Source of the DNA: a virus
IMG/VR virus record: IMGVR_UViG_3300028374_000504
Span: 1-50,730 of that record
Length of the DNA: 50,730 bases
Direction: 5' to 3' (one strand)
The translations under genes were made by a program, and so were the position numbers. This document shows positions 4,688 to 32,764 of the stretch, piece by piece. The number at the start of each line of letters is the position of its first letter. Position 1 is the stretch's first letter. Below the pieces are notes generated by a model. It worked only from the letters and a program-made list of their open reading frames with translations, ran no database searches and was not told the origin of the DNA.

Positions 4688-4710
4688 TATATAATAACTA
4701 GTGAATAGAC

Positions 4711-4782
4711 GGGAATGTGGTCTAATGGTTATGACGCAGGTTTGCAAGTCCTGAGATCGTGGTTCGATCCCACGTTTTCCCT
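4711..4782 (+). tRNA. tRNA-Cys(GCA)
   Basis: A 72-base cloverleaf: acceptor GGGAATG/TTTTCCC (one T-T mismatch and one G-U), D stem GTC/GAC, anticodon stem CAGG/CCTG with loop region TTGCAAG giving GCA, and a perfect T arm CGTGG-TTCGATC-CCACG. Cys-tRNA supply may suit the many Cys-containing small phage proteins, though that link is inference. Confidence 0.85.
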
Positions 4783-6431: not shown

Positions 6432-6937
6432 AGATTTTTCATATAGTTGCTGTTTCTAAAAACAATGTTATTGGAAACAAAGGTTCGATCCCGTGGAAAA
6501 ACAGTCATGATATGAAAAGGTTTAAAGAACTAACCTTAAACCATGCGGTTTTGATGGGTCGAAAAACATGGGAATCATTACCTAAGAAATATAGACCATT
6601 GCTAAACAGATATAATGCAATTTTATCAAGAACGAAAAAGGAGTCTGGTTCCCCTGATTATGACTTTTATACCGATATCGATGCATCTATTCAAGCTTGC
6701 AAAGGTAAGGGGTACAGTGAATTATATGTGATTGGTGGTGAAGAAATTTATAGGCAAACAAAAGAGATTGTTGATGAAATCAGAATGACAGTTATCGAGG
6801 AATTACATGAAGGAGACGCCTTTTATCCGCAAATTAAAGAAATGGGCCTACCACCGGGCAACACGTTTCGATGCTCGTATATCGAGGATTATGATGGGTA
6901 CCATTTTAAAGATTATACAAAGGATGTTCCCTTCTAA
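6428..6937 (+). CDS. folA: dihydrofolate reductase
   Basis: Reduces dihydrofolate to tetrahydrofolate with NADPH, regenerating the cofactor used by ThyA (1535) and by any PanB-type hydroxymethyltransferase (21445). The 169-residue length is normal. Family landmarks: IVAVSKNNVIGNKGSIPW at the N-terminus, MGRKTWESLP near residue 43, and the dinucleotide-binding YVIGGEEIY near residue 100. It starts in an ATGA overlap. The C-terminus (GYHFKDYTKD) is complete. Confidence 0.97.
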   Translation: MKIFHIVAVSKNNVIGNKGSIPWKNSHDMKRFKELTLNHAVLMGRKTWESLPKKYRPLLNRYNAILSRTKKESGSPDYDFYTDIDASIQACKGKGYSELYVIGGEEIYRQTKEIVDEIRMTVIEELHEGDAFYPQIKEMGLPPGNTFRCSYIEDYDGYHFKDYTKDVPF

Positions 6938-8067: not shown

Positions 8068-8195
8068 CTATTATTCCTCCGCTAAGATTAATTAGCATTC
8101 TTGGACGAGTAAACGGTAAAAAAAGAATTATGTGCTCAAATGTGAACGTGTGTAGATAATTAGTATGAATTAATAACCCTTGGAGGTTCTTGTAA
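8068..8195. promoter_or_regulatory. divergent intergenic region between protease and phoH
   Basis: The only divergent gene pair in the window. Toward phoH, a -10-like GATAAT at 8155-8160 lies 35 bases before the ATG, with TTGGAGG as ribosome site; its -35 region is poor. Toward the protease, GGAGG lies just inside this region. No T4-type late element (TATAAATA) is seen. Confidence 0.35.
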
Positions 8196-9428: not shown

Positions 9429-10096
9429 GCATCAAGTTTGTCAAATATATACAAGAAAACTATTATAAATCAGGTCAGACTAAAATGTTCGGGACTATCC
9501 CAATTGTAGTGAAAGACGATTTCGTTGAAGACATTAATATTGAAAATATTAAGGAAAAAGTAGAGTCTCTTTTACCTGCACATTTAGTTAACGGGATAGA
9601 TATAATCTACATCGGCGAATTTCAAGAGTTGCATGATAAGGAAGTGAATGCATTGTACCTTGATGGAGCTATATATATTACTAATGTTCAAACTTCTGAG
9701 CAAGATTTGATCGATGATTTAGTTCATGAAACAGCTCATTTTGTGGAAGAAAAATATACAGCCGATATTTATGGAGATTCAGATATGGAGTGGGAGTTTT
9801 TGCGCAAGCGAAAGAAATTAAATTCCATTCTAAGACAGGAAGGTTACCACACACCGGATAACTTTCACAAAGAACTGGAGTATAATCTAAATATTGATAA
9901 TTTTTTGTATAGAGAAGTGGGATATCCGAAACTTAGAGAATTGACAAATGGGATATTTTTGTCAGCATACTCCATTACAAATGTGAGAGAATATTTTGCC
10001 ATTGGGTTTGAATATTATTTTCTAAGAGATAAAAATGACGTAGCATCTTGTTGTCCGGGCATATTTAGGATACTACAAAAATTAACCGAGGGATAA
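9425..10096 (+). CDS. putative zinc metallopeptidase (lethal-factor/PPEP-like)
   Basis: A 223-residue protein with a zincin motif HETAH at residues 101-105, inside DDLVHETAHFVEE, and a later REYFAIGFEYYF segment whose Glu residues could give the third zinc ligand. This arrangement recalls anthrax lethal-factor-like and Pro-Pro endopeptidase folds, but the assignment rests on motif layout only. No signal peptide, so it should act in the cytoplasm or on the virion. It is coupled to phoH by an ATGA overlap. Confidence 0.6.
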   Translation: MSIKFVKYIQENYYKSGQTKMFGTIPIVVKDDFVEDINIENIKEKVESLLPAHLVNGIDIIYIGEFQELHDKEVNALYLDGAIYITNVQTSEQDLIDDLVHETAHFVEEKYTADIYGDSDMEWEFLRKRKKLNSILRQEGYHTPDNFHKELEYNLNIDNFLYREVGYPKLRELTNGIFLSAYSITNVREYFAIGFEYYFLRDKNDVASCCPGIFRILQKLTEG

Positions 10097-10099
10097 AAG

Positions 10100-10393
10100 A
10101 TGAATTACAAAATTAAAAAATCAAAACGCGGGGATACTTTAACAGTTGTCGTAACTCTACCGAAGCTAGAAAGTTATGATAAAAGTTACAAGATAGATGC
10201 CATGCGTATACTACGTGAATTGGATGAGGTCACTAAAATAGTAAGAATTTTGTCTAATAAAACAGTCGAAGCTTCTGTAGAAGAAGATGTTGTTGTAGAA
10301 TATGAATATCTTTTGCAAAAAGAAAAGAAAAAGACTACGACTAAAAAGACTACGACTAAAACCAAGAAAGAAGAAACGACGAGTGATGAATGA
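10100..10393 (+). CDS. hypothetical protein with Lys/Thr repeat tail
   Basis: A 97-residue protein: an N-terminal strand-rich basic part (MNYKIKKSKRGDTLTVVVTL), a helical middle and a low-complexity tail of KKTTTKKTTTKTKKE. The tail is encoded by a perfect 15-bp tandem repeat. Such tails are likely disordered and may bind nucleic acid. The end overlaps the nuclease gene start by an ATGA, so the two are probably co-translated; partnership is inference. Confidence 0.6.
   Translation: MNYKIKKSKRGDTLTVVVTLPKLESYDKSYKIDAMRILRELDEVTKIVRILSNKTVEASVEEDVVVEYEYLLQKEKKKTTTKKTTTKTKKEETTSDE
10330..10359 (+). repeat. 15-bp perfect tandem duplication in the KTTT tail
   Basis: AAAGACTACGACTAA occurs twice in tandem (10330-10344 and 10345-10359), encoding the repeated Lys-Thr-Thr-Thr-Lys of the preceding ORF's tail. 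Being a multiple of three, copy-number change keeps the frame and only changes tail length. Confidence 0.85.
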
Positions 10394-11265
10394 GTGAAAA
10401 ATTCAACAAAATACTAAAGTATTGGAATAAATCACAAAAGCGCCCATTCGCAGATAAAACGGTCAAAAAGATATCGTTTTCACAATTCAGCAATTGGACA
10501 ACCTGTCCACATTTGCATTATTTAATTTCTATAGCTAAGAAGCTGGGGTACCGGGATACTGATTATACAGCTTTTGGATACCCCATGCATGAAGCTCTCC
10601 AGTTGATGATGTTATCGAAACAATTGGACGAAGAAATGTCGCCCGAAGAAATTTATAACTTCTTTATCAAACGATATGAAGCCAATATTCAAAAGATTGT
10701 TGCAAATGACAATATAAACAAAACAGAATTATCACATGACAAAGTGATAGAATTTGCTACAGCAGCGAAGGCATACCTACCAAAAATCTACGGTTTTATG
10801 ACTGACACATTTGGTAATTATCAAGTTATCGAGACCGAGCGGTCCATAAAACAATTTCTTGATCATTCGACAGAAAATTATCAATATCAGTTTCGTGGTG
10901 AAATCGATTTAGTTCTTGAGAATAATAAAACTCACATTATTGATTGGAAAACTTCCAATCGTGGTTGGAGTGATTGGAAAAAAGAACAAGAAGTGATCGG
11001 TGATCAAATTAGGTTTTATGCACACTTTTATTCAAAAGCTACTAATATACCTCTGGAAGACATTGAAGCTCATTATATCATTCTTAATACACAAACAGAA
11101 GAAATAGAAAAGTTTACGCCAGAGTTAACTCAGGAAAAGGTAGATGGTATGTTTCAACGTCTTCATTCTATGTTGTTCAATGCCTTTGAGCGTGAATATT
11201 ATCCAAAGGGTTCATGTGGTTTATATTGCGAGTGTAAAAAATACTATGATAGCTTAACAGAATAA
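10390..11265 (+). CDS. PD-(D/E)XK nuclease, RecB/Cas4-like
   Basis: A 291-residue nuclease of the PD-(D/E)XK superfamily. The core is GEID (Glu171, Asp173) followed by HIIDWKTS (Asp185, Lys187) and a QIRFYAHFYSKA motif. One Cys near the N-terminus (Cys39, in TTCPHLHY) and a C-terminal cluster Cys276-X3-Cys280-X-Cys282 resemble the iron-sulfur staple of AddB, Cas4 and related exonucleases. No Cas genes are present, so a phage recombination or DNA-processing role is more likely. It starts in an ATGA overlap. Confidence 0.85.
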   Translation: MSEKFNKILKYWNKSQKRPFADKTVKKISFSQFSNWTTCPHLHYLISIAKKLGYRDTDYTAFGYPMHEALQLMMLSKQLDEEMSPEEIYNFFIKRYEANIQKIVANDNINKTELSHDKVIEFATAAKAYLPKIYGFMTDTFGNYQVIETERSIKQFLDHSTENYQYQFRGEIDLVLENNKTHIIDWKTSNRGWSDWKKEQEVIGDQIRFYAHFYSKATNIPLEDIEAHYIILNTQTEEIEKFTPELTQEKVDGMFQRLHSMLFNAFEREYYPKGSCGLYCECKKYYDSLTE

Positions 11266-18174: not shown

Positions 18175-18377
18175 AAGATTCAAAATTTGACAAATACAAA
18201 GAGCTTTTTCAAAAATATTATGATTTATTAGATGAAGGAATGCTTCCTCAATCTTCTGAATTGTCAATTATAAGCAAAAAGCTTGACAAGTTGTGGGATT
18301 CATTTGGATACCGAGACTCGGAGATTATGAGGAATTGGTGTCAGTTCGCGTTGACGGAAAGATATGAAGAATCCTAA
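18171..18377 (+). CDS. small hypothetical helical protein
   Basis: A 68-residue, Lys- and Leu-rich protein that should be mainly alpha-helical (DKYKELFQKYYDLLDEG, then LSIISKKLDKLWDSF). Coupled to both neighbours: ATGA overlap at the start and a 14-base overlap with the GT2 gene at the end. No family is recognised and no functional motif is visible. Confidence 0.6.
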   Translation: MKDSKFDKYKELFQKYYDLLDEGMLPQSSELSIISKKLDKLWDSFGYRDSEIMRNWCQFALTERYEES

Positions 18378-19116
18378 AATTAGTGTTATTATACCCGTTT
18401 ATAACGCCAAAAGCTATATACTGGAAGCAATCGAATCCGTTCGCAAACAGGATTACGAGGGCGAAATACAGCTCATGGTTATTGACAATGAATCAACGGA
18501 TGGAACTTATGAGTTGCTGGTTGATAAAATTGGTGGTCAGTACGACATTATCTTTTTAACTGCCGAAAATAAATATAAATATTCATGGGATGAGCCAACG
18601 CGCTTGGGGCTTCAATATATGGAAGGTTCTGAATACTTCATGTTTATGGCCGCTGATGACTTGTTGCAACCAAATTTCATTTCAAATTGTATGAAGATCA
18701 TCATGAAAGCCCCAGAAAAGATTAAGGCTCTACAAAGTCCTGTTCAATTCTTTGGCGGTTGGAATCATCAACAAAAATATGAATACAAAAATTTAGATGA
18801 ATTTAAGAAACAGATGTTGCAACGAAGCGTTGTAAACACACCAACAATTATCTGGCACCGATCGTTCTATGACGATGGTTTGATGGAACTTACGGAACCA
18901 GAAGAATACTATGGCGCAGATGATTATGCATTATACTGTGCACTCGCCACTCGCGGTCATTTCATTTGGCCCGCACCAAAGTATCTAGGTTACAAATATC
19001 GCATTCATGATAATAACGCCTCTTGGGGTATGCACAAAGAATTGGACGGCCCAAATGTCATTGATAAAAAAATTCAAGAACGTTATCGCAAGATTTGGAA
19101 AGAAGAAACAACCTGA
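18364..19116 (+). CDS. GT2-family glycosyltransferase (GT-A fold)
   Basis: A 250-residue inverting-type glycosyltransferase. The N-terminus ISVIIPVYNAKSYILEAIES is the GT2 hallmark, followed by VIDNESTDGTYELL and the metal-binding FMAADDLLQPNF (a DD in place of DXD) near residue 97. A later EEYYGADDYALYCALA segment fits the catalytic acidic region. No membrane helices, so it acts on a lipid-linked or soluble acceptor at the cytoplasmic face. The 3' end overlaps the RHC ORF in another frame. Confidence 0.9.
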   Translation: MKNPKISVIIPVYNAKSYILEAIESVRKQDYEGEIQLMVIDNESTDGTYELLVDKIGGQYDIIFLTAENKYKYSWDEPTRLGLQYMEGSEYFMFMAADDLLQPNFISNCMKIIMKAPEKIKALQSPVQFFGGWNHQQKYEYKNLDEFKKQMLQRSVVNTPTIIWHRSFYDDGLMELTEPEEYYGADDYALYCALATRGHFIWPAPKYLGYKYRIHDNNASWGMHKELDGPNVIDKKIQERYRKIWKEETT

Positions 19117-19417
19117 ATCCGCAGCCAGACATTGCGAATATCTCAATCATTATTTTCAACCTGTCCCTACTTGTGTCCAAACGCGCCAAAGGGTGCATCA
19201 CCGACCAGCAGGACGATCGTACCCTCCGACGCGCGACCTTGCTCATTCTAAAAAATTAATAATGTTCAGAGTAACAAGGGCCAATGGCTTTGTGGCTAAT
19301 AAAGATGGTTATATTGGCGATTGTAAATTTCTCAAAAAAATTGAAGAAGTTGATTTAGCTTCTGCTTCCGGACTAAAACGACATAAAACAAACAGGAGAA
19401 AAAATGAATCTAGCTGA
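19055..19417 (+). CDS. RHC-motif protein between GT2 and the ThDP enzyme
   Basis: A 120-residue reading overlapping the GT2 gene by 62 bases and the next gene by 14. Its Arg-His-Cys occurs at about residues 25-27 (ESAARHCEYLNHYF) after a basic leader, deeper than in sister ORFs, so the true start may lie downstream at a non-ATG codon. The middle is Arg/Pro/His-rich; the end (FRVTRANGFVANKDGYIGDC) is strand-like. Without the motif it would be hard to support, though it fills an otherwise empty 290-base gap. Confidence 0.5.
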   Translation: MSLIKKFKNVIARFGKKKQPESAARHCEYLNHYFQPVPTCVQTRQRVHHRPAGRSYPPTRDLAHSKKLIMFRVTRANGFVANKDGYIGDCKFLKKIEEVDLASASGLKRHKTNRRKNESS

Positions 19418-21224
19418 TAAAATTGTATCTGTTCTTGTAAAAGATGGAGTTGATCGTTTTTTCATGGTTACCGGTGGCGGTGCCATGTTCTTGAATGATG
19501 CCGTTGCGAAGAGTTCTGATGCAAAAGCGACCTTTATGCACCACGAACAGTCATGCGCCATGGCAGCGGTCGCATATGCTCGACAAACAGGGAATCCTTG
19601 TTGTTGCATTGTAACGACTGGTTGTGGTGTGACAAACGCAATGACCGGTTTGCTTGACGCATGGCAGGATAGTGTTCCTGTCATTTTCATTTCTGGCGCA
19701 GTGGGTGCACAGTATACGACACAGCCTCATATTGCAACAGTTCACGGAGATGCAAAGAAAGTTCGCCATCTGGGTGTACAAGAAGCAAATTGTCAAGATA
19801 TTGTTACTCCATACACAAAACATTACCAGTTTTTGACTAGACTTAGCGGTCTCGGCGACGGGCTCAGGGAATTATACAGTGGTCGACCCGGCCCTATATG
19901 GATTGAAATTCCTCTTGATAGTCAATCTACGCCGGCATCTGAACATGCTTACTACAATACGCCTAATCTAAGACCAAATAGGAGTTATCTTTCTCCTTGG
20001 TCTGCAAAAATGCTTCATAAAAGATTGAAATTAGCTCGGAGACCACTCATTCTCGCCGGTGCGGGAATTAGACAAGGCAGAGCAGTTAAATCATTCAATG
20101 ATTTTATCAAAAAGCATCATATTCCGTTTGTAACAACATACGGCGCAGTTGATATTGCGCAATCAAGAGATGTGCAGCAAAAGAATATTGGCGTTGTCGG
20201 AATCAAAGGTTCTCGCGCAGGTAACTTTGCAATGCAAAACTGTGATTTGCTGCTAGTCCTTGGTTCCTCACTATCTACGCCGGTGGTTGGTTACGATTTA
20301 AATAAATGGGTACCCGAAGCTAACGTGGTAATCATAGACATCGATAAAGAGGAGCACAAAAAGTATGGTGATTTTGATCAACTTTTTATCGAGATAAGTA
20401 TCAATTCTTTCTTTAGAGAATTTGATAAAAAAGGAATGTCATTTCGCGATGAATTGAACAAGTGGAGCGCCAAAACGCTGGCTTGGAAATTCAATTGGAA
20501 AGTATCTGATGAACCTCGACGCTCCGAAGGTGGTCATGATTTCTACAAATTCATGGGTGCGCTCAATAACACTCTAGCAAACGAAGACGAAAAATATACG
20601 GTAATTGGTGATGCAGGGTCGGCTTATTACGTTCCATCACAAATGTTTGAAGCGCCAACGCACAGACTTATTACACCATTGGCACAGGCCGAAATGGGCG
20701 CAACAATCCCATATATGGTCGGCGCAGCGCAAGCTGGTGTAAACGTATTGGGCATTACTGGTGATGGTTCTTTTATGACAAATCTTCAGGAACTTCAAGT
20801 CATTGAACAGTTGCAGTTACCTGTGGTATTATTTGTTTGGAACAACGATGGGTACTTGTCAATCCGAAATACACAAGAGAATTACTTCGACAATAGATTG
20901 TTTGGAACAAATGCCGAATCAGGCCTTAAAATCTCGAATATTGAGAAGATTACGAAAGCATTTAATCTTTCATACTTATGCGTTTCCGCAGAGGATGATC
21001 TGAAAGAATCAATGGCTAATGTTTTTCAAGATTTGAAACAGGTGCGCCCACTAGTTGTTGAAGTAATGTGTGCACCTGTGCAGGATGTGTTCCCTACAAT
21101 TGGAGCGAAAGAAGTCAATGGAGACTTTATTTCTAGACGCTTGGAGGATATGAAACCTTTCATCGATCGTGAAACATTCGCAAAACACATGATTATTGAC
21201 ATGGATCCATCAAGTGAAGAATAA
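19404..21224 (+). CDS. acetolactate-synthase-like ThDP enzyme (YerE-like candidate)
   Basis: A 606-residue thiamine-diphosphate enzyme with the three-domain layout of acetohydroxyacid synthases. The catalytic Glu48 lies in MHHEQSCAMAAVAYAR, and the ThDP motif starts with GDG at 453-455 and ends with WNND near 480. AHAS-like enzymes move a two-carbon unit from pyruvate. The yersiniose enzyme YerE is of this family and attaches that unit to C4 of a CDP-3,6-dideoxy-4-ketohexose. The E1-type dehydratase and SDR genes nearby make this reading attractive. A simple acetolactate synthase or another decarboxylase is the alternative. AGGAG precedes the ATG. Confidence 0.85.
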   Translation: MNLADKIVSVLVKDGVDRFFMVTGGGAMFLNDAVAKSSDAKATFMHHEQSCAMAAVAYARQTGNPCCCIVTTGCGVTNAMTGLLDAWQDSVPVIFISGAVGAQYTTQPHIATVHGDAKKVRHLGVQEANCQDIVTPYTKHYQFLTRLSGLGDGLRELYSGRPGPIWIEIPLDSQSTPASEHAYYNTPNLRPNRSYLSPWSAKMLHKRLKLARRPLILAGAGIRQGRAVKSFNDFIKKHHIPFVTTYGAVDIAQSRDVQQKNIGVVGIKGSRAGNFAMQNCDLLLVLGSSLSTPVVGYDLNKWVPEANVVIIDIDKEEHKKYGDFDQLFIEISINSFFREFDKKGMSFRDELNKWSAKTLAWKFNWKVSDEPRRSEGGHDFYKFMGALNNTLANEDEKYTVIGDAGSAYYVPSQMFEAPTHRLITPLAQAEMGATIPYMVGAAQAGVNVLGITGDGSFMTNLQELQVIEQLQLPVVLFVWNNDGYLSIRNTQENYFDNRLFGTNAESGLKISNIEKITKAFNLSYLCVSAEDDLKESMANVFQDLKQVRPLVVEVMCAPVQDVFPTIGAKEVNGDFISRRLEDMKPFIDRETFAKHMIIDMDPSSEE

Positions 21225-21438
21225 AAGACACTGTTTTGTACATTTGTCGGACATTTCTGAAAGGCGAGCGAAGTTGAATAATGATTATGAAGTTAGAACA
21301 ATCGAGTTTTATGAGAATTTTAGAGAAAGAAGGTTAAAATTCATAAAATGTAATTATTCGGTTTCTTGTCCTAGTCAATTTAAAGTAAAAATGTACATCC
21401 CTAAATATCAATCAGAAAATAGCATATTCGAATGGTGA
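21214..21438 (+). CDS. small RHC-motif protein
   Basis: From the GTG at 21214 this is a 74-residue basic protein beginning (M)KNKRHCFVHLSD, with Arg-His-Cys at residues 5-7. A TTG six codons upstream is an alternative start. The protein is rich in Arg, Lys and aromatic residues (YEVRTIEFYENFRERRLKF) and has two further Cys. It overlaps the end of the ThDP enzyme gene by 11 bases, so the pair is probably co-translated. Function unknown. Confidence 0.6.
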   Translation: MKNKRHCFVHLSDISERRAKLNNDYEVRTIEFYENFRERRLKFIKCNYSVSCPSQFKVKMYIPKYQSENSIFEW

Positions 21439-21444: not shown

Positions 21445-22407
21445 ATGGCTAAGAAAAAAACAATATTAAATCTTCAAAAGATGAAATTTGAAGGACCACA
21501 AGTTACTTGGATTACAGCGTATGATTATCCGACAGCTGTCGCCGCCGAACGAGCAGAGGTTGATCTAATTTTGGTAGGCGATAGTGGTGGAATGTGTTTG
21601 TTAGGTTACGAAAACACACATCCTGTTACAATGGATGAAATGATCACAATGACCAAAGCTGTCCGCCGCGGCGCCCCTAATACATTTATTATCGGGGACA
21701 TGCCACAAGGTTCATATGAGGTATGCGCAGAAGACGCTGTACGCAACGCTATGCGCTTCGTTAAAGAATGCGGAGTAGATGCTGTGAAACTTGAAGGATG
21801 CCATGAGAAGGTTGTACGCGCGCTCACAAAGGCTGGTATCAACGTTGTCGGCCACTTGGGGTTAACTCCACAGTCAAGTGAAACATTTGGTGGTTACAGA
21901 GTGCAAGGAAAGACCGTTGTATCGTTTTGCAGTATTATGGAAGATGCGTATGATTTAGAAAGAGCAGGTATTTGTTTTCTCTTACTAGAAGGTATGCCCA
22001 CATACTCCGCTGGCAAAGTAAAAGATTTATTGAATATCCCAGTTTACGGAGTTGGAGCAGGAGCGAAACAAGATGGTCAGCTTTTGATTATTTCAGATAT
22101 TTTAGGAAATTATCCAAACTTTAAACCAAGATTCGCTCACAACTTTGTTAATGATGTGTTAACGTCAGACTTTGTGGAAAGTGGTGAAACAGGTTTTTTG
22201 ACAATTGCAGAAGAAGCAATTAAGTTGTTTATGTCAGAAGTGAAAAGTGGAGCTTTTCCATATCCTGACAACATTTATCCTCTGGGCAAGGATCAAGTCG
22301 AATTTGAAAAAGAAATTGTTCGTCAATGGAAATTATTACATTTCAGGGGAAAAAGCAGAATGGCTAGAGTTTTTCCTGATTTAGTTGCAGGAGGCAAAAT
22401 TGATTAA
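21445..22407 (+). CDS. panB: ketopantoate hydroxymethyltransferase-like enzyme (PanB type)
   Basis: A 320-residue PanB-family TIM barrel. PanB adds a hydroxymethyl group from methylenetetrahydrofolate to 2-ketoisovalerate. The family signature is complete: ITAYDYPTA, metal-binding LVGDSGGM and IGDMPQGS, VKLEG with the conserved Lys, GHLGLTPQSSETFGGY, a catalytic-type Glu in LLLEGMP, and GVGAG. The C-terminus is about 50 residues longer than in E. coli PanB. No other pantothenate gene is present; the neighbours are sugar enzymes, so it may hydroxymethylate another ketoacid or ketosugar. TAATG-type spacing and AGG precede the start. Confidence 0.88.
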   Translation: MAKKKTILNLQKMKFEGPQVTWITAYDYPTAVAAERAEVDLILVGDSGGMCLLGYENTHPVTMDEMITMTKAVRRGAPNTFIIGDMPQGSYEVCAEDAVRNAMRFVKECGVDAVKLEGCHEKVVRALTKAGINVVGHLGLTPQSSETFGGYRVQGKTVVSFCSIMEDAYDLERAGICFLLLEGMPTYSAGKVKDLLNIPVYGVGAGAKQDGQLLIISDILGNYPNFKPRFAHNFVNDVLTSDFVESGETGFLTIAEEAIKLFMSEVKSGAFPYPDNIYPLGKDQVEFEKEIVRQWKLLHFRGKSRMARVFPDLVAGGKID

Positions 22408-22943: not shown

Positions 22944-23822
22944 ATGAACGTCTTAATAACAGGAGCCAGTGGTTTTATCGGCAAGAATATCAAGAAATAT
23001 CTTGAATCTCTTGATACAGTTAGTCGTATATTTACACCCTCTTCGAAAGAATTAGATTTAACGAACCTTCATTCGGTGCGTAAATATTTTCATCTTCGTA
23101 GTGGCCAAATCAATGCCATTGTTCATTGTGCAGCAGTTGGCGGCCGCCGTTTAAATGTGGACGATTCAAGCTGTTTGTACAACAACATTGTTATGCACAG
23201 TAATTTGATTCACTGGTTTGATTCTGAGCCTAACACGCGTGTCTTTATTAATATTGGTTCCGGCGCTGAATTCGACCGCTCGAAGGGAATCACGAACGGT
23301 CTTCCAAAATTCCTACCGAAAGACTTTTATGGTCTTTCGAAGAGAACTATTACTGACAAACTTTTGGAAGTTAAAGATAATAATAAAAGATATATCAACT
23401 TGCGAGCCTTCGGTGTTTTTGGCCCCGGCGAAGAAAAACAACGTTTTGTTCGATCAGCATTAACACGTTACAAAAACAAAAGATCAATTACTATCCACAA
23501 AGAAAAAAGAATGGATTTCTTTTATGTCGAGGATATCGCCCGAATAATTGAGACAATTTTGAAAGGATATGGTTCTAAGATTGAAACAATAGATTTATCG
23601 TATCCTGATAGAAAACTTTTTCTTGGGGATATAGCGGGAAGTATTAATGCGCTGGATGAACACAATGTGCCTATTAGATATGAATTCAAAAGTATGGATA
23701 GAGATTATTTTGGAAGCATATACGAATTAAGTAAAATGATAGCAGAAACCGACCTAAAACTCGTTGGTTTGAATGAAGGAATAAAAGAAACATATGAAAT
23801 TATACAGCAGGAGCTTGAATGA
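22944..23822 (+). CDS. NAD(P)-dependent SDR epimerase/reductase
   Basis: A 292-residue extended SDR. The nucleotide-binding GASGFIGKNI is at residues 7-16, followed by IVHCAAVGG, an INIGSG with the catalytic-type Ser, and YGLSKR with the Tyr-X3-Lys pair. It acts on nucleotide sugars. Its size and position with the ThDP enzyme and E1-type dehydratase fit a YerF-like ketosugar reductase, but UDP- or GDP-sugar epimerase/reductase is equally possible on sequence alone. The stop overlaps the lipoprotein start by ATGA. Confidence 0.85.
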   Translation: MNVLITGASGFIGKNIKKYLESLDTVSRIFTPSSKELDLTNLHSVRKYFHLRSGQINAIVHCAAVGGRRLNVDDSSCLYNNIVMHSNLIHWFDSEPNTRVFINIGSGAEFDRSKGITNGLPKFLPKDFYGLSKRTITDKLLEVKDNNKRYINLRAFGVFGPGEEKQRFVRSALTRYKNKRSITIHKEKRMDFFYVEDIARIIETILKGYGSKIETIDLSYPDRKLFLGDIAGSINALDEHNVPIRYEFKSMDRDYFGSIYELSKMIAETDLKLVGLNEGIKETYEIIQQELE

Positions 23823-24253
23823 AGAAGATATTTTTATTGTCACTAGTATTTTTGGTAAGTTGTAGTATTTTTGTTGGTTCACGACACAATATCGGAGCAG
23901 CGAAATTTCAATGCAATGCATTTTCTGCATGTCCTGACTTTAACGAAGTTGATCGATTTTTTGCAGAAGAAAAGATTATCTGGGAAACTGAATGTGGGAT
24001 TCGAGATTTTGATGAAGCAATAAAAAATATACACGGCCGCTTAGAAATACACTTTAGTGAGGATTTAGCAGAAGAAGTTGGTGCGCTAGGGAGATATTGG
24101 CCTCGTGAACACATCATTGAAGTACAGTACCCACATCCTAAATGGCTCGGTATTTTGAGACATGAATTAGGATTAGCTATTGCACAGACACAATTAGGTT
24201 ATGTTGGTGAGGCAAAGAAAATAGAATGGTATCAATGTCATCCAAAACTATGA
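23819..24253 (+). CDS. predicted lipoprotein with degenerate HExxH motif
   Basis: A 144-residue protein with a lipoprotein signal (MKKIFLLSLVFLVSCSIF, lipobox Cys15). Near the C-terminus LRHELGLAIAQ looks like a zinc-peptidase HELGHAI whose second His has become Leu, so catalysis is unlikely unless another residue binds metal. Several Cys could form disulfides after export. It is encoded between sugar-enzyme genes and coupled to the SDR by ATGA. It may be an envelope protein exposed at the host periplasm. Confidence 0.65.
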   Translation: MKKIFLLSLVFLVSCSIFVGSRHNIGAAKFQCNAFSACPDFNEVDRFFAEEKIIWETECGIRDFDEAIKNIHGRLEIHFSEDLAEEVGALGRYWPREHIIEVQYPHPKWLGILRHELGLAIAQTQLGYVGEAKKIEWYQCHPKL

Positions 24254-24264
24254 ATGGAGGAAAT

Positions 24265-24669
24265 ATGAGCAATTATGTTGAAGAAAGACCTTGGGGTAAA
24301 TTTGAGATTCTTTATGATGGAGACGACTGTAAAGTTAAGAAAATCACAGTCAATCCCGGTGGAAGATTAAGTTTGCAAAGTCATACACAACGTCAAGAGA
24401 TTTGGACTGTTGTTTCTGGCCAATTGGGCGTCGATTTAGGCGTTCCCGCCAATGATGAAAAAGGTAATTTTTCATTAGAAAATACAATGGGCATGTTAAA
24501 AAAAAGTTATCATACTTTTGATGGTCATTTGCGCATCCCACAAGGGTGGGTGCATCGTGCCTTTAACGTAGGCTCAGAGCCGGCCATATTCATTGAGGTG
24601 CAAACCGGCACATACTTCGGTGAAGACGATATTACTCGTTACGAAGATGATTACGGGAGAGTCGAATGA
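24265..24669 (+). CDS. cupin, mannose-6-phosphate isomerase type II-like
   Basis: A 134-residue single-domain cupin: RPWGKFEILYDGDDCKVKKI, then PGGRLSLQSHTQRQEIWTVVSGQLGV with metal-binding His/Gln/Glu, and RIPQGWVHRAFN as the second motif. This is the pattern of the isomerase domain of ManC/type II phosphomannose isomerases, which turns fructose-6-P into mannose-6-P. It would feed GDP-mannose to the Gmd enzyme at 31718. GGAGG precedes the chosen ATG; a longer start is possible but lacks a site. Confidence 0.88.
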   Translation: MSNYVEERPWGKFEILYDGDDCKVKKITVNPGGRLSLQSHTQRQEIWTVVSGQLGVDLGVPANDEKGNFSLENTMGMLKKSYHTFDGHLRIPQGWVHRAFNVGSEPAIFIEVQTGTYFGEDDITRYEDDYGRVE

Positions 24670-24959
24670 GAAGGAATGACGAATTGTATTTGGAATTTGA
24701 TTCAATTTCTAAAGAAACTGAAAAGGCATATCGTGTTAGCAAAGATGGTCACGAAGTTTGGTTTCCAAAATCACAAGTTAAACGTAGCCGCCCACCTCAC
24801 AGGTGTGAAAACCAGATGAATTGGCTCTGCGTTACACAGTGGATTGTGGACCAGAAAACTGCTCAAATTCCAAAAGAATGGAAGTTTTATACTGACTGGG
24901 AATTGGTTGGAGATTACCCGGATGATGACATGGATATGGCTTGGTGGGAAATGCAATGA
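24666..24959 (+). CDS. hypothetical protein
   Basis: A 97-residue protein coupled to its neighbours by ATGA overlaps on both sides. It contains a KDGHEVWFPKSQVKRSR segment resembling a small beta domain, then a Trp-rich C-terminal half (NWLCVTQWIVDQKTAQIPKEW, MDMAWWEM). No membrane segment. Its tight coupling to the cupin and the 3-dehydratase suggests co-expression, but no family is recognised. Confidence 0.65.
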   Translation: MRRNDELYLEFDSISKETEKAYRVSKDGHEVWFPKSQVKRSRPPHRCENQMNWLCVTQWIVDQKTAQIPKEWKFYTDWELVGDYPDDDMDMAWWEMQ

Positions 24960-26446
24960 CAAATAAATGTGAAAATTGCGATTGTGCAACGGCAACTAGT
25001 GAGAAATTCAAAGAAGCAACAGAGAAAATAACAAAAAAATATGGAGCAGTTTTACAGAAACTTGCTGATTCGGAACTTGAAGATAAACGACAAGAAGTTT
25101 TAAAGTCTGTTTCTGAATTCATCATGATGAAAAAAGGAAGAGAATCATGGACGGCCGGCGAAGATTGGGTAAAATATTCCGGGCCCCACTTCAATGATGA
25201 GGAATATGTTGCAGCCGTTGATTCACTTTTAACTGAATGGCTGATCTTTGGAGAAAAAGCTAGAGAGTTTGAACATAAATTCTCACCATTAATGGGAACA
25301 AAGACTGGCGTTCTCACAAACAGTGGATCCTCAGCTAATTTGCTGATGGTTTCATCACTCACAAGTAAGAGAAAAACAAACAAGTGGTACCTTCCTAAAG
25401 GAAGTAAAATCATTACCCCAGTCGTTTGTTTTCCTACAACATTGAATCCAATTATTCAGAACGGCTTTGAACCAATATTCGTTGATGTGGAAATTCCTTC
25501 TCTTAACATCGATTTGGACAAAGTAGAAAAATTACTGAAGGACACAAAGGCACTCGGTTATGAAATGCCTAAAGCAATTATGTTTGCGCATGTTTTGGGG
25601 AATCCTCCTGACATGGACCGTCTTATGGCTCTGTGCGATGAATATGATCTTCTTTTTCTTGAAGATGCATGTGATGCTCTAGGTTCAACTTATGATGGGA
25701 AAAAGCTGGGTTCATTTGGACTCATGAGTACATGTTCATTTTTCCCTGCTCATCACATGACAATGGGAGAAGGTGGTTTCATTGCAACGAACGAGCACCG
25801 CCTAGACCGTATCCTAAGAGCATTTAGGGATTGGGGTAGGGCATGCTATTGCAATGAGCGTAAACCCGGTGACGTGACCGAGGAGACAGCCTGTGGGGGA
25901 CGTTTCAACACATGGTTGCCCGGCGCCCCCGATGCCATCTATGATCACCGATATGTTTTTGATGAGATTGGTTATAATATCAAACCATTAGAACATCAAG
26001 CTGCAATGGGTTTGGCGCAGATCAAGAAACTACCTGAAATGGAACAAGCCCGCCGCCATAACTTTGATCGTATGAAAAAGATTTTTGAACCATATCAAAA
26101 GTACCTTCATCTTCCGGTTGCAACAGAAAAGGCAGATCCGTGTTGGTTTGGGTTTTTATTGACAGTGAAAGATGATGCTCCGTTCACGAAACAAGATCTC
26201 GTCGACCACTTAGAGGCAAATAAAATTCAAACTAGATCCTATTTCACCGGGAATGTTCTTGCTCATCCCGGCTACATGCATTTGCATAATTTTAATGCAA
26301 CCGGTCTTGCTCAAATGTATCCTGTGGCCACAAAAGTAACAAAAGATACGTTCTTTATGGGGACGTTTATCGGTTTAACTGATGATAAGATGCGATATAT
26401 TTGTACGAAAGTTGACGAATTCTTTGAACCAGTTTTACACGGATAA
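24956..26446 (+). CDS. E1/RfbH-type CDP-4-keto-6-deoxyhexose 3-dehydratase
   Basis: A 496-residue DegT-fold PLP/PMP enzyme of the E1 class, which removes the C3 hydroxyl of CDP-4-keto-6-deoxyglucose on the way to 3,6-dideoxyhexoses. His266 in SFFPAHHMTMGEGG takes the place of the PLP lysine of aminotransferases, as in E1. Cys239, Cys297, Cys299 and Cys313 give C-X57-C-X1-C-X13-C; E1 has C-X57-C-X1-C-X7-C for its [2Fe-2S] cluster, so only the last gap differs. An extra N-terminal Cys set (5, 8 and 10) is unusual. GDP-sugar ColD-type enzymes also use His but lack these cysteines. A thioredoxin gene lies just downstream. Confidence 0.9.
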   Translation: MTNKCENCDCATATSEKFKEATEKITKKYGAVLQKLADSELEDKRQEVLKSVSEFIMMKKGRESWTAGEDWVKYSGPHFNDEEYVAAVDSLLTEWLIFGEKAREFEHKFSPLMGTKTGVLTNSGSSANLLMVSSLTSKRKTNKWYLPKGSKIITPVVCFPTTLNPIIQNGFEPIFVDVEIPSLNIDLDKVEKLLKDTKALGYEMPKAIMFAHVLGNPPDMDRLMALCDEYDLLFLEDACDALGSTYDGKKLGSFGLMSTCSFFPAHHMTMGEGGFIATNEHRLDRILRAFRDWGRACYCNERKPGDVTEETACGGRFNTWLPGAPDAIYDHRYVFDEIGYNIKPLEHQAAMGLAQIKKLPEMEQARRHNFDRMKKIFEPYQKYLHLPVATEKADPCWFGFLLTVKDDAPFTKQDLVDHLEANKIQTRSYFTGNVLAHPGYMHLHNFNATGLAQMYPVATKVTKDTFFMGTFIGLTDDKMRYICTKVDEFFEPVLHG

Positions 26447-26449: not shown

Positions 26450-26740
26450 ATGGCTCATTCACCCAAGGATTTGAAAAGACTTGAGAAGGCTAACAAAAAC
26501 AAAGAGAAAGTGAAAGTTTTAGATTTCGCTGAAAACTACATCGATTATATGCTTTCAATTGGTTGGAGAAACATGATTCTTTCCAAGAAAGTAGATTCGA
26601 GCTTGAAAATTGATGTGGCTGGCTTATTTGTAGAACATGAAGACTTGGCAAAACGAATCAAAAATGTATACGAAGTTGCTGGTTGGGATGTAGAATATGG
26701 AGAATATTACGCTTATATTAAACTAAAGGAGAAAACATGA
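26450..26740 (+). CDS. hypothetical protein
   Basis: A 96-residue basic protein starting three bases after the dehydratase stop: a Lys-rich helical N-terminus (MAHSPKDLKRLEKANKNKEK), a mixed middle (AENYIDYMLSIGWRN) and a strand-like end (WDVEYGEYYAYIKL). It overlaps the thioredoxin start by an ATGA. No motif or known family is evident; it is probably co-expressed with the dehydratase and thioredoxin. Confidence 0.65.
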   Translation: MAHSPKDLKRLEKANKNKEKVKVLDFAENYIDYMLSIGWRNMILSKKVDSSLKIDVAGLFVEHEDLAKRIKNVYEVAGWDVEYGEYYAYIKLKEKT

Positions 26741-27051
26741 AAGAAATAACGAGCACAGGAGAATTTGACGCCGATGTGAAACATTCAGATAAGCCATTAT
26801 TAGTAGATTTTTATGCCGATTGGTGTGTACCTTGTCAGAGTGTTAGATACCTCTTAGATGATTTTAAAGATGAGATAACAGAAGGCTTTATTCTTGTCAA
26901 GGTAAATGTAGATACAGAAGCAAACGCTGAATTATTGAAACGTTTTTACGTTAATTCAATTCCAACATTGGTCCGCGTCGAAAACGGCGCGGAAACAAAA
27001 AGGTTTATCGGCCTTCCATCACACAAACAATTTAAGGAGCTAATCGGATGA
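26737..27051 (+). CDS. trxA: thioredoxin
   Basis: A 104-residue thioredoxin with the redox motif WCVPC at residues 29-33, preceded by LLVDFYADW and followed by the cis-Pro region SIPTLVRVENG. Trp-Cys-Val-Pro-Cys has Val where the usual motif has Gly. Phage thioredoxins can serve ribonucleotide reductase or polymerase processivity. Here the gene is one ORF away from an Fe-S dehydratase that needs electrons, and the usual E3 reductase gene is not visible; a link is inference. Coupled by ATGA to both neighbours. Confidence 0.95.
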   Translation: MKEITSTGEFDADVKHSDKPLLVDFYADWCVPCQSVRYLLDDFKDEITEGFILVKVNVDTEANAELLKRFYVNSIPTLVRVENGAETKRFIGLPSHKQFKELIG

Positions 27052-27458
27052 AAAAGTTAATACTATTAATTGTCGCACTTTTCGCAATGTCGTGTCTTAC
27101 ACATAAAGATATCGCACAAGCAAAAGCTGACATGTACGAACAAATCGTTGAACATCACGAGCAACAACGCACTGAATTATACATCAAAGATCGAGTTAAT
27201 GATTTCTTACTGTTGTTGCAATTTCAACGAGGATACCCATACGCCAATCTTACTGATGTAAGAATTGTGGAATCACAATCGATCGACCGGTCAATGACAC
27301 GTTATTTATGCGATGTTGGGATGCAAACATCATTTGCCCCCTTTATGGTGAATAGAATGACAGTTGACGTACTTAATAATTTGTCAGGAATTAGGCAGCT
27401 TTCATTTGAGTTGAATCCGTTTGTGGCTCCCGAAGGTGGTGTCAAGGCAAAAGAATGA
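27048..27458 (+). CDS. predicted lipoprotein
   Basis: A 136-residue protein with a lipoprotein signal: MKKLILLIVALFAMSCLTH with the lipobox Cys at residue 16. The mature part is helical and charged (AKADMYEQIVEHHEQQRTELY), ending in a proline/glycine-containing tail. It is the second lipoprotein in the sugar region and overlaps both neighbours. A surface or periplasmic role is likely; the specific function is unknown. Confidence 0.65.
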   Translation: MKKLILLIVALFAMSCLTHKDIAQAKADMYEQIVEHHEQQRTELYIKDRVNDFLLLLQFQRGYPYANLTDVRIVESQSIDRSMTRYLCDVGMQTSFAPFMVNRMTVDVLNNLSGIRQLSFELNPFVAPEGGVKAKE

Positions 27459-28429
27459 AAATTGCCGTAATTACAGGATGTTTGGGTTTTCTAGGTAAGC
27501 ATTTAACACGTCGTGCTCTCAAAAAGGGTTGGCGCGTTTTTGGGATTGATAAAATCAATTATTGTTCCGATTTGGAAATGCTAAATCACTTCGAATCTCA
27601 AGAAAGATTTAAGTTTCTTCAGGCCGATATCGCTGATCTTGATAGATTACCCAGATGCGATTATGTTATCAACACGGCAGCCGAATCTCACGTGGCTCAT
27701 TCTATTGCCGATAGTGAACCTTTTATTGTTGCTAACGTTGATGGAGTTCGCAATCTGCTGGAGTTAATACGAGAGAAACCTGATAATAGTCAGCCGCTTT
27801 TAATGCATATTAGCACTGATGAGGTTTATGGAGATATTGATGATGGTTTCTTCACAGAAGAATCATTGCCTAACCCTTCTAATCCTTATTCAGCGTCAAA
27901 AGCAGCTGGTGACATGCTTGTCATGGCGTGGGCTAGAACCTACGGTGTAAAATATAACATCATGCGTCCAACGAACTTTTATGGCGTTGGACAGTATCCT
28001 GAGAAATTGGTCCCATTGGTAATCGATAATTTGGATAGGGGTATAAAAATTCCTTTGCATAATAGCGGCGAACCGATTCGAACATGGCTTCATGTTGAAG
28101 ATGCAATAAAAGCAATCTTTACGATCTTAGAAAAGGGTCAACGAAATGAAGTTTATAACTGTTCTGGAGGATATGAACAAAAAAATTGGGAAACAGTTGC
28201 TTACATTTTGCAATTATACTGTGACGATTTTGAGTTTGATTCCGCCGAACCATTACTATCAATGAGAAACTATATTGATCTATCTTATGATCGAGAAGGA
28301 CAAGATATTCGATATGCATTAGACGATGAAAAACTCAGAAAACTTGGCTGGAAACCAGAAAGGATTTTTGAAGAAGAAATTGTAAAGATAGTCAAGTTTC
28401 ATAAAGGTAAATTCATAGGAGAATTTTAA
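27455..28429 (+). CDS. NDP-glucose 4,6-dehydratase (RmlB-like)
   Basis: A 324-residue extended SDR close to dTDP- and CDP-glucose 4,6-dehydratases. GCLGFLGKHL binds NAD, STDEVYGD holds the Asp-Glu pair used for dehydration, NPYSASKAAGD has Tyr-X3-Lys, and YPEKLVPLVIDN plus DIRYALDDEKLRKLGW match the substrate side. The product, a 4-keto-6-deoxyglucose nucleotide, is the substrate of the E1-type enzyme if the nucleotide is CDP; sequence alone does not fix CDP versus dTDP. It starts in an ATGA overlap. Confidence 0.9.
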   Translation: MKIAVITGCLGFLGKHLTRRALKKGWRVFGIDKINYCSDLEMLNHFESQERFKFLQADIADLDRLPRCDYVINTAAESHVAHSIADSEPFIVANVDGVRNLLELIREKPDNSQPLLMHISTDEVYGDIDDGFFTEESLPNPSNPYSASKAAGDMLVMAWARTYGVKYNIMRPTNFYGVGQYPEKLVPLVIDNLDRGIKIPLHNSGEPIRTWLHVEDAIKAIFTILEKGQRNEVYNCSGGYEQKNWETVAYILQLYCDDFEFDSAEPLLSMRNYIDLSYDREGQDIRYALDDEKLRKLGWKPERIFEEEIVKIVKFHKGKFIGEF

Positions 28430-29259: not shown

Positions 29260-29912
29260 AAACAAAACTTTTATCTTATCCTCGTTCGGGCAACACATGG
29301 CTTCGATACTGTATCGAGTTTTTGACAAAAAGACCCACTATTGGTGTTTCTGGTTCAAACGCGTTCATCGCGCGCCCCATCGGCGCGCTTTATGATATGG
29401 GGGTCGATATGGGGGCAGAACCTATATGCCAAAAAAGTCATGATATCGCAAATTTGACTGGATCGGTTTTGTTTCTTGTTAGAAATTACAAAGAATGTGT
29501 TCCGCGTCATCAGCGAACTATAGGTTCGCGTGCCGATACAGATATTTTGTTAAGAGATTATTCCCAAATGATCAAGGAGTTTGATTCTTTTTCTGGCCCC
29601 AAGAAAATATTATATTATGAAGATTTAATCAAAGGGAAAAAGTCTTTTTTCAAAGATGTGTTAGATTTTTTCGAATGTGATGATGGCTATTTACAGGAAT
29701 TCATTTTTGACATAGAAAAACACAGAAATATGTCAATACAATTTTATAATCGTAATGGACAACCGTCTATAACCAAAGGTCAGATGGAAATATTCCATAG
29801 TTTTCGACTTGATGATGAGATTTGGGACATAAAAATGAAGAACAACCTAGGTGAAGAATTATACTATAAATATCTGGATAGGTACGAATACAAAAGAGGC
29901 GATAATGGATAA
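29253..29912 (+). CDS. sulfotransferase
   Basis: A 219-residue member of the PAPS-dependent sulfotransferase fold. The 5'-phosphosulfate loop is SYPRSGNTWLRYCIE at residues 8-22, and LVRNYKECVPRHQR near 75-88 fits the 3'-phosphate-binding segment. Most likely it sulfates a sugar or another hydroxyl on the glycan built by the neighbouring transferases. PAPS must come from the host, since no sulfate-activation genes are in this window. It overlaps both neighbours, so it belongs to the same transcript. Confidence 0.85.
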   Translation: MLKTKLLSYPRSGNTWLRYCIEFLTKRPTIGVSGSNAFIARPIGALYDMGVDMGAEPICQKSHDIANLTGSVLFLVRNYKECVPRHQRTIGSRADTDILLRDYSQMIKEFDSFSGPKKILYYEDLIKGKKSFFKDVLDFFECDDGYLQEFIFDIEKHRNMSIQFYNRNGQPSITKGQMEIFHSFRLDDEIWDIKMKNNLGEELYYKYLDRYEYKRGDNG

Positions 29913-30846
29913 ATATAAAAACGTATTAGTTCTCGGCGGCACAGGTTTCGTCGGGAAAAATTTGCAAGATATAGAACCCGAATGGGATTATATAGGCACT
30001 TGTGGAGGTAAAATTGATTACAGAGTATACGATCATGTACATGCTTTAATCGAACATTACGAACCTGATGCTATCGTTAACCTCGCCGCTACTGTCGGAG
30101 GAATCAAATTCAATGACGAGAACAAAATCTCCCAGTATGAGGATAACATTCTTATCAATACAAATATCTTAATGGCCGCGAGAGGATTAAACGTTCCTCG
30201 TGTGTTGTCGGCGTTGAGTACATGTGTTTTTCCTAATGCTATGGAATCTTGTTACCCCCTCGATGAATTCGATTTGTTTTATGTTCAAAATGATTTCCAT
30301 AAGGAATTAGTTTTTACTGAACCATTTGAAGGCCATAAAGGATATGCATGGTCAAAAAGAATGTTGCAAATTCATACTGAATTATGTCGTCAATTAGGAT
30401 ATAATTATTCAACATTTTGTCCATCCAACATATATGGCGTTTATGACAAGATAGGAGAAGATTCACATTTTGTATCAGCATTAATAAACAAAGTTGATAA
30501 TGCTAAAGATGGTGATACACTGAAGTTTTGGGGAACTGGTCTAGAAAAACGACAGCAATTATATGTTAGAGATTTAGCAGAGATGATTCCAACATTGTTA
30601 GAAAAACACGACAGTGATCGACCCGTCATTATCGCTCCAAACGAAAACTTAACAATCAGTGAGATGGTTGGTATAATGGTTGAGATCTCCGGTAAAAATT
30701 TAACAGTCGAATTTACCGGACAACGCGCCGGACAAGTGAGAAAAGATTGTGTCAATAGAGGAGGCGCTTTTCAAGACTTATTTGGAGATTATCAATATAC
30801 ATCATTCAGAGATGGTTTAAAGGAAACCTATGAGTGGTTTGTATGA
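29905..30846 (+). CDS. fcl: GDP-L-fucose synthase-like epimerase/reductase
   Basis: A 313-residue SDR of the GDP-fucose synthase type, converting GDP-4-keto-6-deoxymannose to GDP-L-fucose. VLGGTGFVGKNL binds NADP, VNLAATVGGI follows, STCVFP carries the catalytic Ser and a conserved Cys, and GYAWSKRM supplies Tyr-X3-Lys. NIYGVYD lies in the substrate region. The ATG at 29905 follows AGAGG and overlaps the sulfotransferase stop. A TATAAATA lies 40 bases upstream but inside coding sequence. It pairs with the Gmd at 31718. Confidence 0.9.
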   Translation: MDKYKNVLVLGGTGFVGKNLQDIEPEWDYIGTCGGKIDYRVYDHVHALIEHYEPDAIVNLAATVGGIKFNDENKISQYEDNILINTNILMAARGLNVPRVLSALSTCVFPNAMESCYPLDEFDLFYVQNDFHKELVFTEPFEGHKGYAWSKRMLQIHTELCRQLGYNYSTFCPSNIYGVYDKIGEDSHFVSALINKVDNAKDGDTLKFWGTGLEKRQQLYVRDLAEMIPTLLEKHDSDRPVIIAPNENLTISEMVGIMVEISGKNLTVEFTGQRAGQVRKDCVNRGGAFQDLFGDYQYTSFRDGLKETYEWFV

Positions 30847-31267: not shown

Positions 31268-31721
31268 AAAGCAATACGATATTATTATTCTAAGTGGTGG
31301 TTTTGACCCGCCTCATGTTGGGCATATTCGCATGGTGCAAGCTGCCGCCAAGCAAGCAGATTTTGTTTTTGTCGGATGCAACACTGACGACTGGTTAACT
31401 CGAAAGAAAGGTTATGTATTCATGTCTCTCGAAGATCGTTCCGAGATTATGAAATCTGTAAAAGGTGTCCATGCAGTTATTCCTTTCTCTGACGATGACG
31501 ACACTGCCATTCATCTGATTAAAAAAGTTTGCGCTCTGTATGATCCGCGCGGCTTCAAGGTTGCGTTCGGGAATGGCGGCGATCGCAAAGAAGGGAACAC
31601 ACCAGAGCAAAGGTATTGTGAGAATAACAACATCGATATGGTCTGGAATCTCGGCGGCGGCAAAATCCGCTCAAGTTCAGATTTGGTGGAAAGATACAAA
31701 AAACAAACAGGAAAAGAATGA
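31260..31721 (+). CDS. HxGH nucleotidyltransferase (cytidylyltransferase-like)
   Basis: From GTG 31260, a 153-residue protein of the HxGH nucleotidyltransferase family (TagD, RfaE C-domain, CoaD relatives). GGFDPPHVGHIRM gives His19-X2-His22, and GGGKIRSSSDLV near the end is the counterpart of the ISST motif. These enzymes join CTP or ATP to a sugar or polyol phosphate. It could activate glycerol-, heptose- or another sugar-phosphate for the glycan, but is not the large glucose-1-P cytidylyltransferase expected for CDP-glucose. It overlaps both neighbours. Confidence 0.85.
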   Translation: MTEKQYDIIILSGGFDPPHVGHIRMVQAAAKQADFVFVGCNTDDWLTRKKGYVFMSLEDRSEIMKSVKGVHAVIPFSDDDDTAIHLIKKVCALYDPRGFKVAFGNGGDRKEGNTPEQRYCENNNIDMVWNLGGGKIRSSSDLVERYKKQTGKE

Positions 31722-32764
31722 AAAAGACAGCTATCATATCAGGTGTAACCGGCCAAGACGGAAGTTATCTAGCTGAAATACTTTTGGAAAAAGGGTATAA
31801 AGTTGTAGGTTTAAAACGAAGAACATCCGTTATATCGACAAGTAGGATTGATCATCTTTTTGCAAACCGAGATTTCGAGCTTAGATATTATTCACTCTTT
31901 GATCCAACATGTCATTACAAGTTGATTCAAGATTGCCAACCTGATGAAGTATACAACATGGCGGCGCAAAGTCATGTCAAGGTCAGTTTTGAAACGCCAC
32001 AAGAAACTATGGATTCTATTATTCATGGTTGTTTATATTGGCTGGAAGCAATTCGCACGCTAAAACCTGACACAAAATTTTATCAAGCTTCAAGTAGTGA
32101 GATGTTTGGGAGAAACACAACAGTCCCGCTGAATGAAAATTCCGAAATGCTCCCAGCATCACCGTATGCTTGCGCGAAGCTTTGTTCTCATCATTTGGTT
32201 CAGAATTATCGAGAATCGTACAACCTATTCGCATGTTCTGGCATTCTGTTTAATCATGAATCCCCTCGACGCGGCGAAACCTTTGTTACAAGAAAGGTGA
32301 CACAAGCAGTAGCAAATATTAAATTAGGATTACAGGACGTATTAGAACTTGGTAATCTATACGCAAAACGTGATTGGGGTCACGCACGCGACTACATGGA
32401 GTGCGTTCACGTTATGTTACAGGCTCCACAAGCCGACGACTACGCTATCGCGACCGGGGAGACGCATACGGTGAAGGAATGGGTAACAGAGGCGTTCAGG
32501 GTCGCTCAGATGGGGGCGCTAACGTGGCATGGCACCGGAAAAAGCGAAGTTGCATTCATCGATGGAAAAAAGGTTGTGAAAATTAACCCGAAATACTTCC
32601 GTCCACAAGAGGTTCCGGTATTGCTCGGGGATTCTTCGAAGGCTAGAGAAAAACTTGGATGGAAACCGAAAATTAACTTTAATCAATTAGCTAAAATCAT
32701 GTATCAATATGATTACGGCATGGCTATCGAAAAACAAGGCGGTTATGTCGAAGGAATTTTTTAA
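31718..32764 (+). CDS. gmd: GDP-mannose 4,6-dehydratase
   Basis: A 348-residue extended SDR that dehydrates GDP-D-mannose to GDP-4-keto-6-deoxymannose. Diagnostic features are GVTGQDGSYLAEILLEKGY at the N-terminus, a RRTSVISTSRIDHL segment, SSSEMFG with the catalytic Ser/Thr-Asp/Glu region, SPYACAKL with Tyr-X3-Lys and FNHESPRRGETFVTRK, typical of Gmd. Together with the fucose-synthase gene and the isomerase cupin it forms a near-complete GDP-fucose branch. It starts in ATGA overlap and its stop overlaps the start of a broken gene. Confidence 0.96.
   Translation: MKKTAIISGVTGQDGSYLAEILLEKGYKVVGLKRRTSVISTSRIDHLFANRDFELRYYSLFDPTCHYKLIQDCQPDEVYNMAAQSHVKVSFETPQETMDSIIHGCLYWLEAIRTLKPDTKFYQASSSEMFGRNTTVPLNENSEMLPASPYACAKLCSHHLVQNYRESYNLFACSGILFNHESPRRGETFVTRKVTQAVANIKLGLQDVLELGNLYAKRDWGHARDYMECVHVMLQAPQADDYAIATGETHTVKEWVTEAFRVAQMGALTWHGTGKSEVAFIDGKKVVKINPKYFRPQEVPVLLGDSSKAREKLGWKPKINFNQLAKIMYQYDYGMAIEKQGGYVEGIF

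Follow-up and report, generated by a model that had tools for sequence, protein, structure and literature searches.

A phage PanB-family gene beside a ThDP enzyme: a proposed role in nucleotide-sugar branching

The gene discussed here occupies positions 21445–22407 (plus strand) of a linear viral contig, IMG/VR record IMGVR_UViG_3300028374_000504, whose full 50,730 nucleotides we call the window. It encodes a PanB-family 2-oxoacid hydroxymethyltransferase, and we consider it probable that it belongs to a PanB sublineage that serves nucleotide-sugar branching and not pantothenate synthesis, acting by the steps proposed below, for which we infer the substrates, the order, the product and the final acceptor. 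Phage genes lie at 36–50 kb of the window, including one for a baseplate protein that resembles Flavobacterium phage immuto, and four tRNA genes lie at its left end (2369–4782).

The gene is real and intact: an ATG-initiated reading frame of 320 aa runs unbroken, and stops occur throughout the opposite strand. Its product clears the cut-offs (in parentheses) of three family models, with 292 bits for PF02548 (28.7), 258 bits for the panB equivalog TIGR00222 (207.6) and 284 bits for NF001452 (272). The predicted fold, an AlphaFold model that reaches pLDDT 87 with a 43-sequence alignment and 40 without it, matches the ketopantoate-bound structure 1m3u of E. coli ketopantoate hydroxymethyltransferase (KPHMT) at a TM-score of 0.92, normalised by target length. 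As the preliminary description had noted, all the signature residues of the family are present (D46, S47, D85, K115, E117, H137 and E182); they align with the metal and substrate ligands of the E. coli enzyme, whose ligand and catalytic roles they presumably keep, and the same seven are invariant across 70 viral relatives. The observation that no other pantothenate gene is nearby was also borne out, in that no PanC, PanE (ApbA) or SHMT family member occurs in the 50.7 kb of this linear viral fragment, the span for which the absence is valid. High similarity to a host panB had been named as the result that would speak against a special role; that comparison, run in part, gives about 39–41% identity to canonical PanBs and 41–57% to the PanBs linked to a ThDP gene, on whose branch of the tree the window protein sits.

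A single-sequence query with the window PanB in IMG/VR returned no relative and an alignment query returned 91; the BFVD library held no PanB-like viral protein. Our set of 81 viral loci comprises the best 80 of these 91 profile-scan relatives plus one locus from a control scan (L185), and is thus not a random sample; thinning to <95% identity leaves 47 distinct PanBs. An acetolactate-synthase-like ThDP gene lies within 3 kb of PanB in all 81 loci, with a median gap of 34 bp, and beside PanB in 47/47 of the thinned set. RfbH-like genes accompany the pair in 71 loci and RmlB-like genes in 36, while an SDR homologue follows PanB within 300 bp in 60. No panC or panD came to light in the locus DNA available around these PanBs, so that the 81 loci, like the window, lack the gene company that would suggest a role in pantothenate synthesis. 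The ThDP gene may stand upstream or downstream of PanB and is of several types, with at least nine changes of order and at least 11 of type on the best tree, many nodes of which are weak; the pairing seems to outlast rearrangement. The ThDP gene adjoining PanB is short (335–340 aa) in L011, L015, L016, L019, L087 and L185; in L185 an overlapping ORF of ~249 aa comes after it and holds the remainder, which suggests a two-subunit form.

A control scan of IMG/VR with canonical PanBs produced two non-sugar viral loci, a panB-panC-panD operon (L168) and a gene at a contig edge (L169). Candidates from other sources were set aside as sugar-cluster examples. PanB matches in isolate phages all had ≤44% identity, several of them in bacterial contigs or unannotated assemblies; the panB of Microcystis phage MaAM05 lies two genes from panC; and plasmid matches were all below 60% identity (best 45% among the matches listed) and mostly annotated as panB.

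The preliminary description had also connected PanB with the ThyA (1535–2362) and DHFR (6428–6937) genes of the window through their common folate cofactor. Both genes are indeed encoded there, but the link found no support: the 81 other PanB loci, surveyed over as much as 10 kb on either side, contain neither of them, and since PanB releases THF and not DHF, it needs no DHFR.

In a tree of 81 proteins, the ThDP-linked PanBs group on a single branch with the bacterial proteins of L088 and L090 (SH-aLRT 88). A single clade that also includes a PanB of the bacterial genome G570 is not rejected (p-AU 0.88), and nearly all panC-adjacent PanBs fall outside the 53-row branch that holds the ThDP-linked ones. 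The two groups also differ in the substrate pocket. Positions 180, 213 and 215 are Leu, Leu and Ile in 35/35 ThDP-linked or near-linked PanBs, as against Val/Ile, Val/Ile and Val in 18/18 panC-adjacent ones. Positions 213 and 215 of the window protein align with I212 and V214 of E. coli PanB, mutation of which alters substrate range (PMC7610986); two of the three published E. coli pocket positions are thus changed in every ThDP-linked protein and in none of the panC-adjacent ones. Residues of the Leu, Leu, Ile type are also found in some other bacterial PanBs. The pocket hints at a changed substrate without naming which. A third PanB lineage (L091–L118, about 16 bacterial loci, and L195) comes mostly from anaerobes and has neither panC nearby nor a detected sugar cluster; L195 (G112) matched the profile but was rejected as a sugar-type locus, its neighbours being non-sugar genes.

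Strong matches to the ThDP-linked PanB profile are rare in bacteria, with one or two per search of 369, 386, 396 and 286 genomes. One of them is G570, which has its phylum in common with a Prochlorococcus single-cell genome. Its cluster holds RfbF and RfbH above their cut-offs, RfbG in two pieces, an SDR, and ThDP and PanB genes side by side; close by are further ThDP genes, one of which stands beside those for 4-hydroxy-2-oxovalerate aldolase and acetaldehyde dehydrogenase. A separate panB-panC pair lies on another contig of the same genome. PanB also adjoins a ThDP gene in L089 (Bacteriovoracales), in whose draft genome PanC was not found, and the available locus DNA of the relatives L088 and L090 contains no ThDP gene. 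In L088 (Bacteroidetes, 7793–10927), the sugar-type PanB lies beside two CitE/RipC-like lyases and a MaoC-like protein, with a DegT-type aminotransferase further upstream. In the bacterial locus L194 (1877–5596), acetaldehyde dehydrogenase, 4-hydroxy-2-oxovalerate aldolase and a ThDP enzyme are consecutive within a CDP-dideoxysugar cluster, a row that likely represents an erwiniose-like route.

The ThDP neighbour in the window (19404–21224, plus strand) is an acetolactate-synthase-like protein of 606 aa that we propose to be a C-branching ligase. Its best PDB match, and that of three of its relatives, is JanthE (8rph), at 255 bits compared with 183 for AHAS II (5ahk), and NCBIfam acetolactate synthase models score it at 138–255 bits against cut-offs of 500–1084. 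JanthE is a YerE-like lyase from Janthinobacterium that takes 4-hydroxy-2-oxovalerate, with benzaldehyde as acceptor; two residues close to its active site, P293 and Y297, are hotspots for mutagenesis (PMC12188165). STPVVGYD of the window enzyme aligns with AIPQIGYD of JanthE, where acetolactate synthases have FDDRVTG; within the PxxGY hotspot the P and Y are conserved, whereas the CDG motif of JanthE is an ordinary GDG in the window protein. Judged through JanthE, with YerE and ErwE compared by description alone, the enzyme is nearer by sequence to YerE-like enzymes than to AHAS, and by analogy it would join an acyl carbanion to a ketosugar. An 80-aa ORF (21196–21438) overlaps the end of the ThDP gene and separates it from PanB, a spacing that contrasts with the tight coupling in most relatives.

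The surrounding sugar-enzyme and cupin genes, all on the plus strand, fit a sugar cluster. Directly upstream of the ThDP gene is a family 2 glycosyltransferase (18364–19116; PF00535), a homologue of which stands in the equivalent place in several viral PanB loci. Downstream of PanB, an SDR/NAD-dependent epimerase-like protein (22944–23822; PF01370) has 32% identity to the SDR of the G570 cluster and may, in a YerF-like role, reduce the branched ketosugar. The RfbH-type PLP/[2Fe-2S] NDP-4-keto-6-deoxyhexose 3-dehydrase (24941–26446; NF011936, 467 bits, cut-off 423) carries SFFPAHHMTMGEGG (PAHH; the PLP lysine is replaced by His) and the iron–sulfur cysteine pattern C244-X57-C302-X-C304. An RmlB-like NDP-hexose 4,6-dehydratase (27455–28429) scores 296 bits with TIGR01181, under the cut-off of 365, and only 62 bits with the CDP-glucose 4,6-dehydratase model. 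Among the window genes scanned, no RfbF nucleotidyltransferase, RfbG or RfbI-type reductase was identified; since the dehydratase is RmlB-like and RfbF and RfbG were not identified, the nucleotide may be dTDP or host-supplied. A cupin related to the C-terminal domain of mannose-6-phosphate isomerase (24226–24669; PF01050, 84.7 bits) lies among these genes and may belong to the pathway. A thioredoxin gene (26737–27051) lies within the cluster. GDP-mannose 4,6-dehydratase Gmd (31718–32764; TIGR01472, 439 bits, cut-off 415) and a GDP-L-fucose-synthase-like (Fcl-like) SDR (29851–30846; NF047922, 110.6 bits, cut-off 500) probably form a separate GDP-sugar branch.

We hypothesize that an RmlB-like enzyme would dehydrate NDP-glucose and RfbH would 3-deoxygenate the product, giving an NDP-4-keto-3,6-dideoxyhexose. 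PanB would hydroxymethylate a small 2-oxoacid, be it pyruvate, 2-oxobutanoate or 2-oxoisovalerate, with 5,10-methylene-THF as the one-carbon donor. The YerE/ErwE-like ThDP enzyme would decarboxylate the resulting 4-hydroxy-2-oxoacid and attach it, as a hydroxyacyl carbanion, to C4 of the ketosugar; the product would be a branched sugar that bears a tertiary alcohol. The side-chain ketone formed in this step may be reduced by the SDR that adjoins PanB, and phage or host glycosyltransferases would then put the branched sugar on a surface glycan or a phage product. ErwE prefers 4-hydroxy-2-oxoacids, its natural acceptor being CDP-4-keto-3,6-dideoxyglucose (PMC12247030), and E. coli PanB has made varied 4-hydroxy-2-oxoacids in vitro (PMC10127515, PMC7610986). 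As the window PanB passes the panB equivalog cut-off, ketopantoate itself may be the product. The earlier suggestion that the two enzymes together make a C-branched building block is probably right, in view of their adjacency in all 81 viral loci and of the G570 cluster, which includes RfbF/G/H in a genome that has panB-panC elsewhere. A supply of branched ketoacids from the ThDP enzyme to PanB is not needed for this. By analogy with ErwE, PanB acting first, to make the 4-hydroxy-2-oxoacid, and the ThDP enzyme second, to transfer it to the ketosugar, is likelier than the reverse order.

Other genes sometimes appear in the place of PanB. Of 80 viral loci from a scan for the ThDP family, 55 contain PanB and 25, some of them truncated, lack it. 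An HpcH/HpaI-family homologue directly follows the ThDP gene in six PanB-less phage loci; that of L281 is clearly HpaI-like, and the other five are weak members (26–32 bits in those scored) that may do something else. HpcH/HpaI aldolases and PanB both yield 4-hydroxy-2-oxoacids. Most of the six loci also have a homologue of LdpA, a 4Fe-4S cyanobacterial clock protein; in L248 (8768–10728), L259, L262 and L281 it occurs with the HpcH/HpaI-family protein after the ThDP gene. Six further PanB-less loci (L278, L279, L280, L283, L284 and L256) have a DJ-1/PfpI module, with DJ-1/PfpI, cupin and HAD-like genes near the ThDP gene; L279 and L280 each contain one ORF of ~790 aa, an apparent fusion of cupin and ThDP enzyme. 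None of the HpcH/HpaI, LdpA-like and DJ-1/PfpI modules was found in 136 PanB locus records, a number from two overlapping scans that exceeds that of distinct contigs. Twelve PanB-less loci, several of them incomplete, have no alternative donor module. We lean, by a little, towards a broader view in which donor modules (PanB, HpcH/HpaI aldolase, 4-hydroxy-2-oxovalerate aldolase) are exchangeable, folate-borne formaldehyde enters a sugar branch, PanB feeds ErwE-like ThDP enzymes for the most part in phages and at times in bacteria, and a group of the reported viral vitamin-B5 genes are surface-sugar genes. Among the papers we searched, none linked phage PanB to branched sugars.

The ordinary alternative, also named in the preliminary description, is an auxiliary metabolic gene whose product raises host pantothenate and CoA during infection. 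The equivalog score and the full set of catalytic residues agree with it, and passages of an oxygen minimum zone virome study interpret viral pantoate transferases in this way (PMC8940887). It is nevertheless disfavoured, and we regard it as improbable: a ThDP neighbour is universal and panC and panD are absent in the 81 best-relative loci, the ThDP-linked PanBs branch separately from nearly all panC-adjacent ones and differ from every one of them at the two E. coli pocket positions, and G570 retains its own panB-panC besides the sugar-linked gene.

An enzyme that worked after the ThDP step, or directly on the sugar, would hydroxymethylate a branched ketosugar or ketosugar nucleotide. PanB, however, requires a 2-oxoacid enolate, which counts against this order, and the residues aligned to those that hold the free 2-oxoacid and the metal are invariant, whereas a ketosugar has no carboxylate. 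The shared gene neighbourhood would suit such a reaction, as would the bulky partners accepted by variants of E. coli KPHMT (PMC7610986), yet we give it a similarly small chance. Least probable is that the ThDP enzyme acts simply as an acetolactate synthase for valine precursors and, with host IlvC and IlvD, supplies 2-oxoisovalerate to PanB. Family membership allows this, and valine and CoA synthesis is the heading that KEGG-style annotation gives to phage genes of this kind (PMC8226683), but the scores far below the model cut-offs, JanthE as nearest structure, TPVVGYD in place of FDDRVTG and the recurring RfbH and RmlB neighbours all argue against it.

If the sugar-branching role is true, a vitamin enzyme family has taken on a further biosynthetic role, that of bringing one-carbon units into sugar branches, and a class of virus annotations taken as CoA boosting would be corrected. 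Viral acetolactate synthases, too, have been filed under CoA synthesis (PMC8226683), a placing that the gene neighbourhoods speak against for this clade. The PanB–ThDP pair would be at hand for enzymologists who wish to make tertiary alcohols or branched sugars. The role also suggests an elaborate, swappable branched-sugar chemistry in phages, which perhaps serves to alter glycans on the host or phage surface.

Canonical PanB (EC 2.1.2.11, TIGR00222, PF02548) has its fold and catalytic residues in common with the window protein, and presumably its chemistry of methylene-THF and a 2-oxoacid; the phage proteins, at their ~39–41% identity, form their own clade, lie in sugar clusters and never with panC in the loci seen, and all members tested have Leu and Ile in place of E. 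coli I212 and V214. The same protein family appears as a viral "pantoate transferase" auxiliary gene in ETNP oxygen minimum zone viromes, read as CoA boosting in passages that do not take up the gene neighbourhood (PMC8940887). For the clade of the window PanB, the vitamin-boosting reading is, to judge from the neighbourhoods, probably wrong. In the yersiniose A pathway of Yersinia pseudotuberculosis, the 3,6-dideoxy-4-ketohexose acceptor and the ThDP C-branching enzyme are as proposed here, but YerE takes pyruvate directly, with no donor-making enzyme, and the phage system adds PanB. The erwiniose pathway of Pectobacterium atrosepticum, likened by description, likewise combines a YerE-like ThDP enzyme, ErwE, with a 4-keto-3,6-dideoxyhexose acceptor; here, the donor would instead come from a PanB-type hydroxymethyltransferase, and in a phage.
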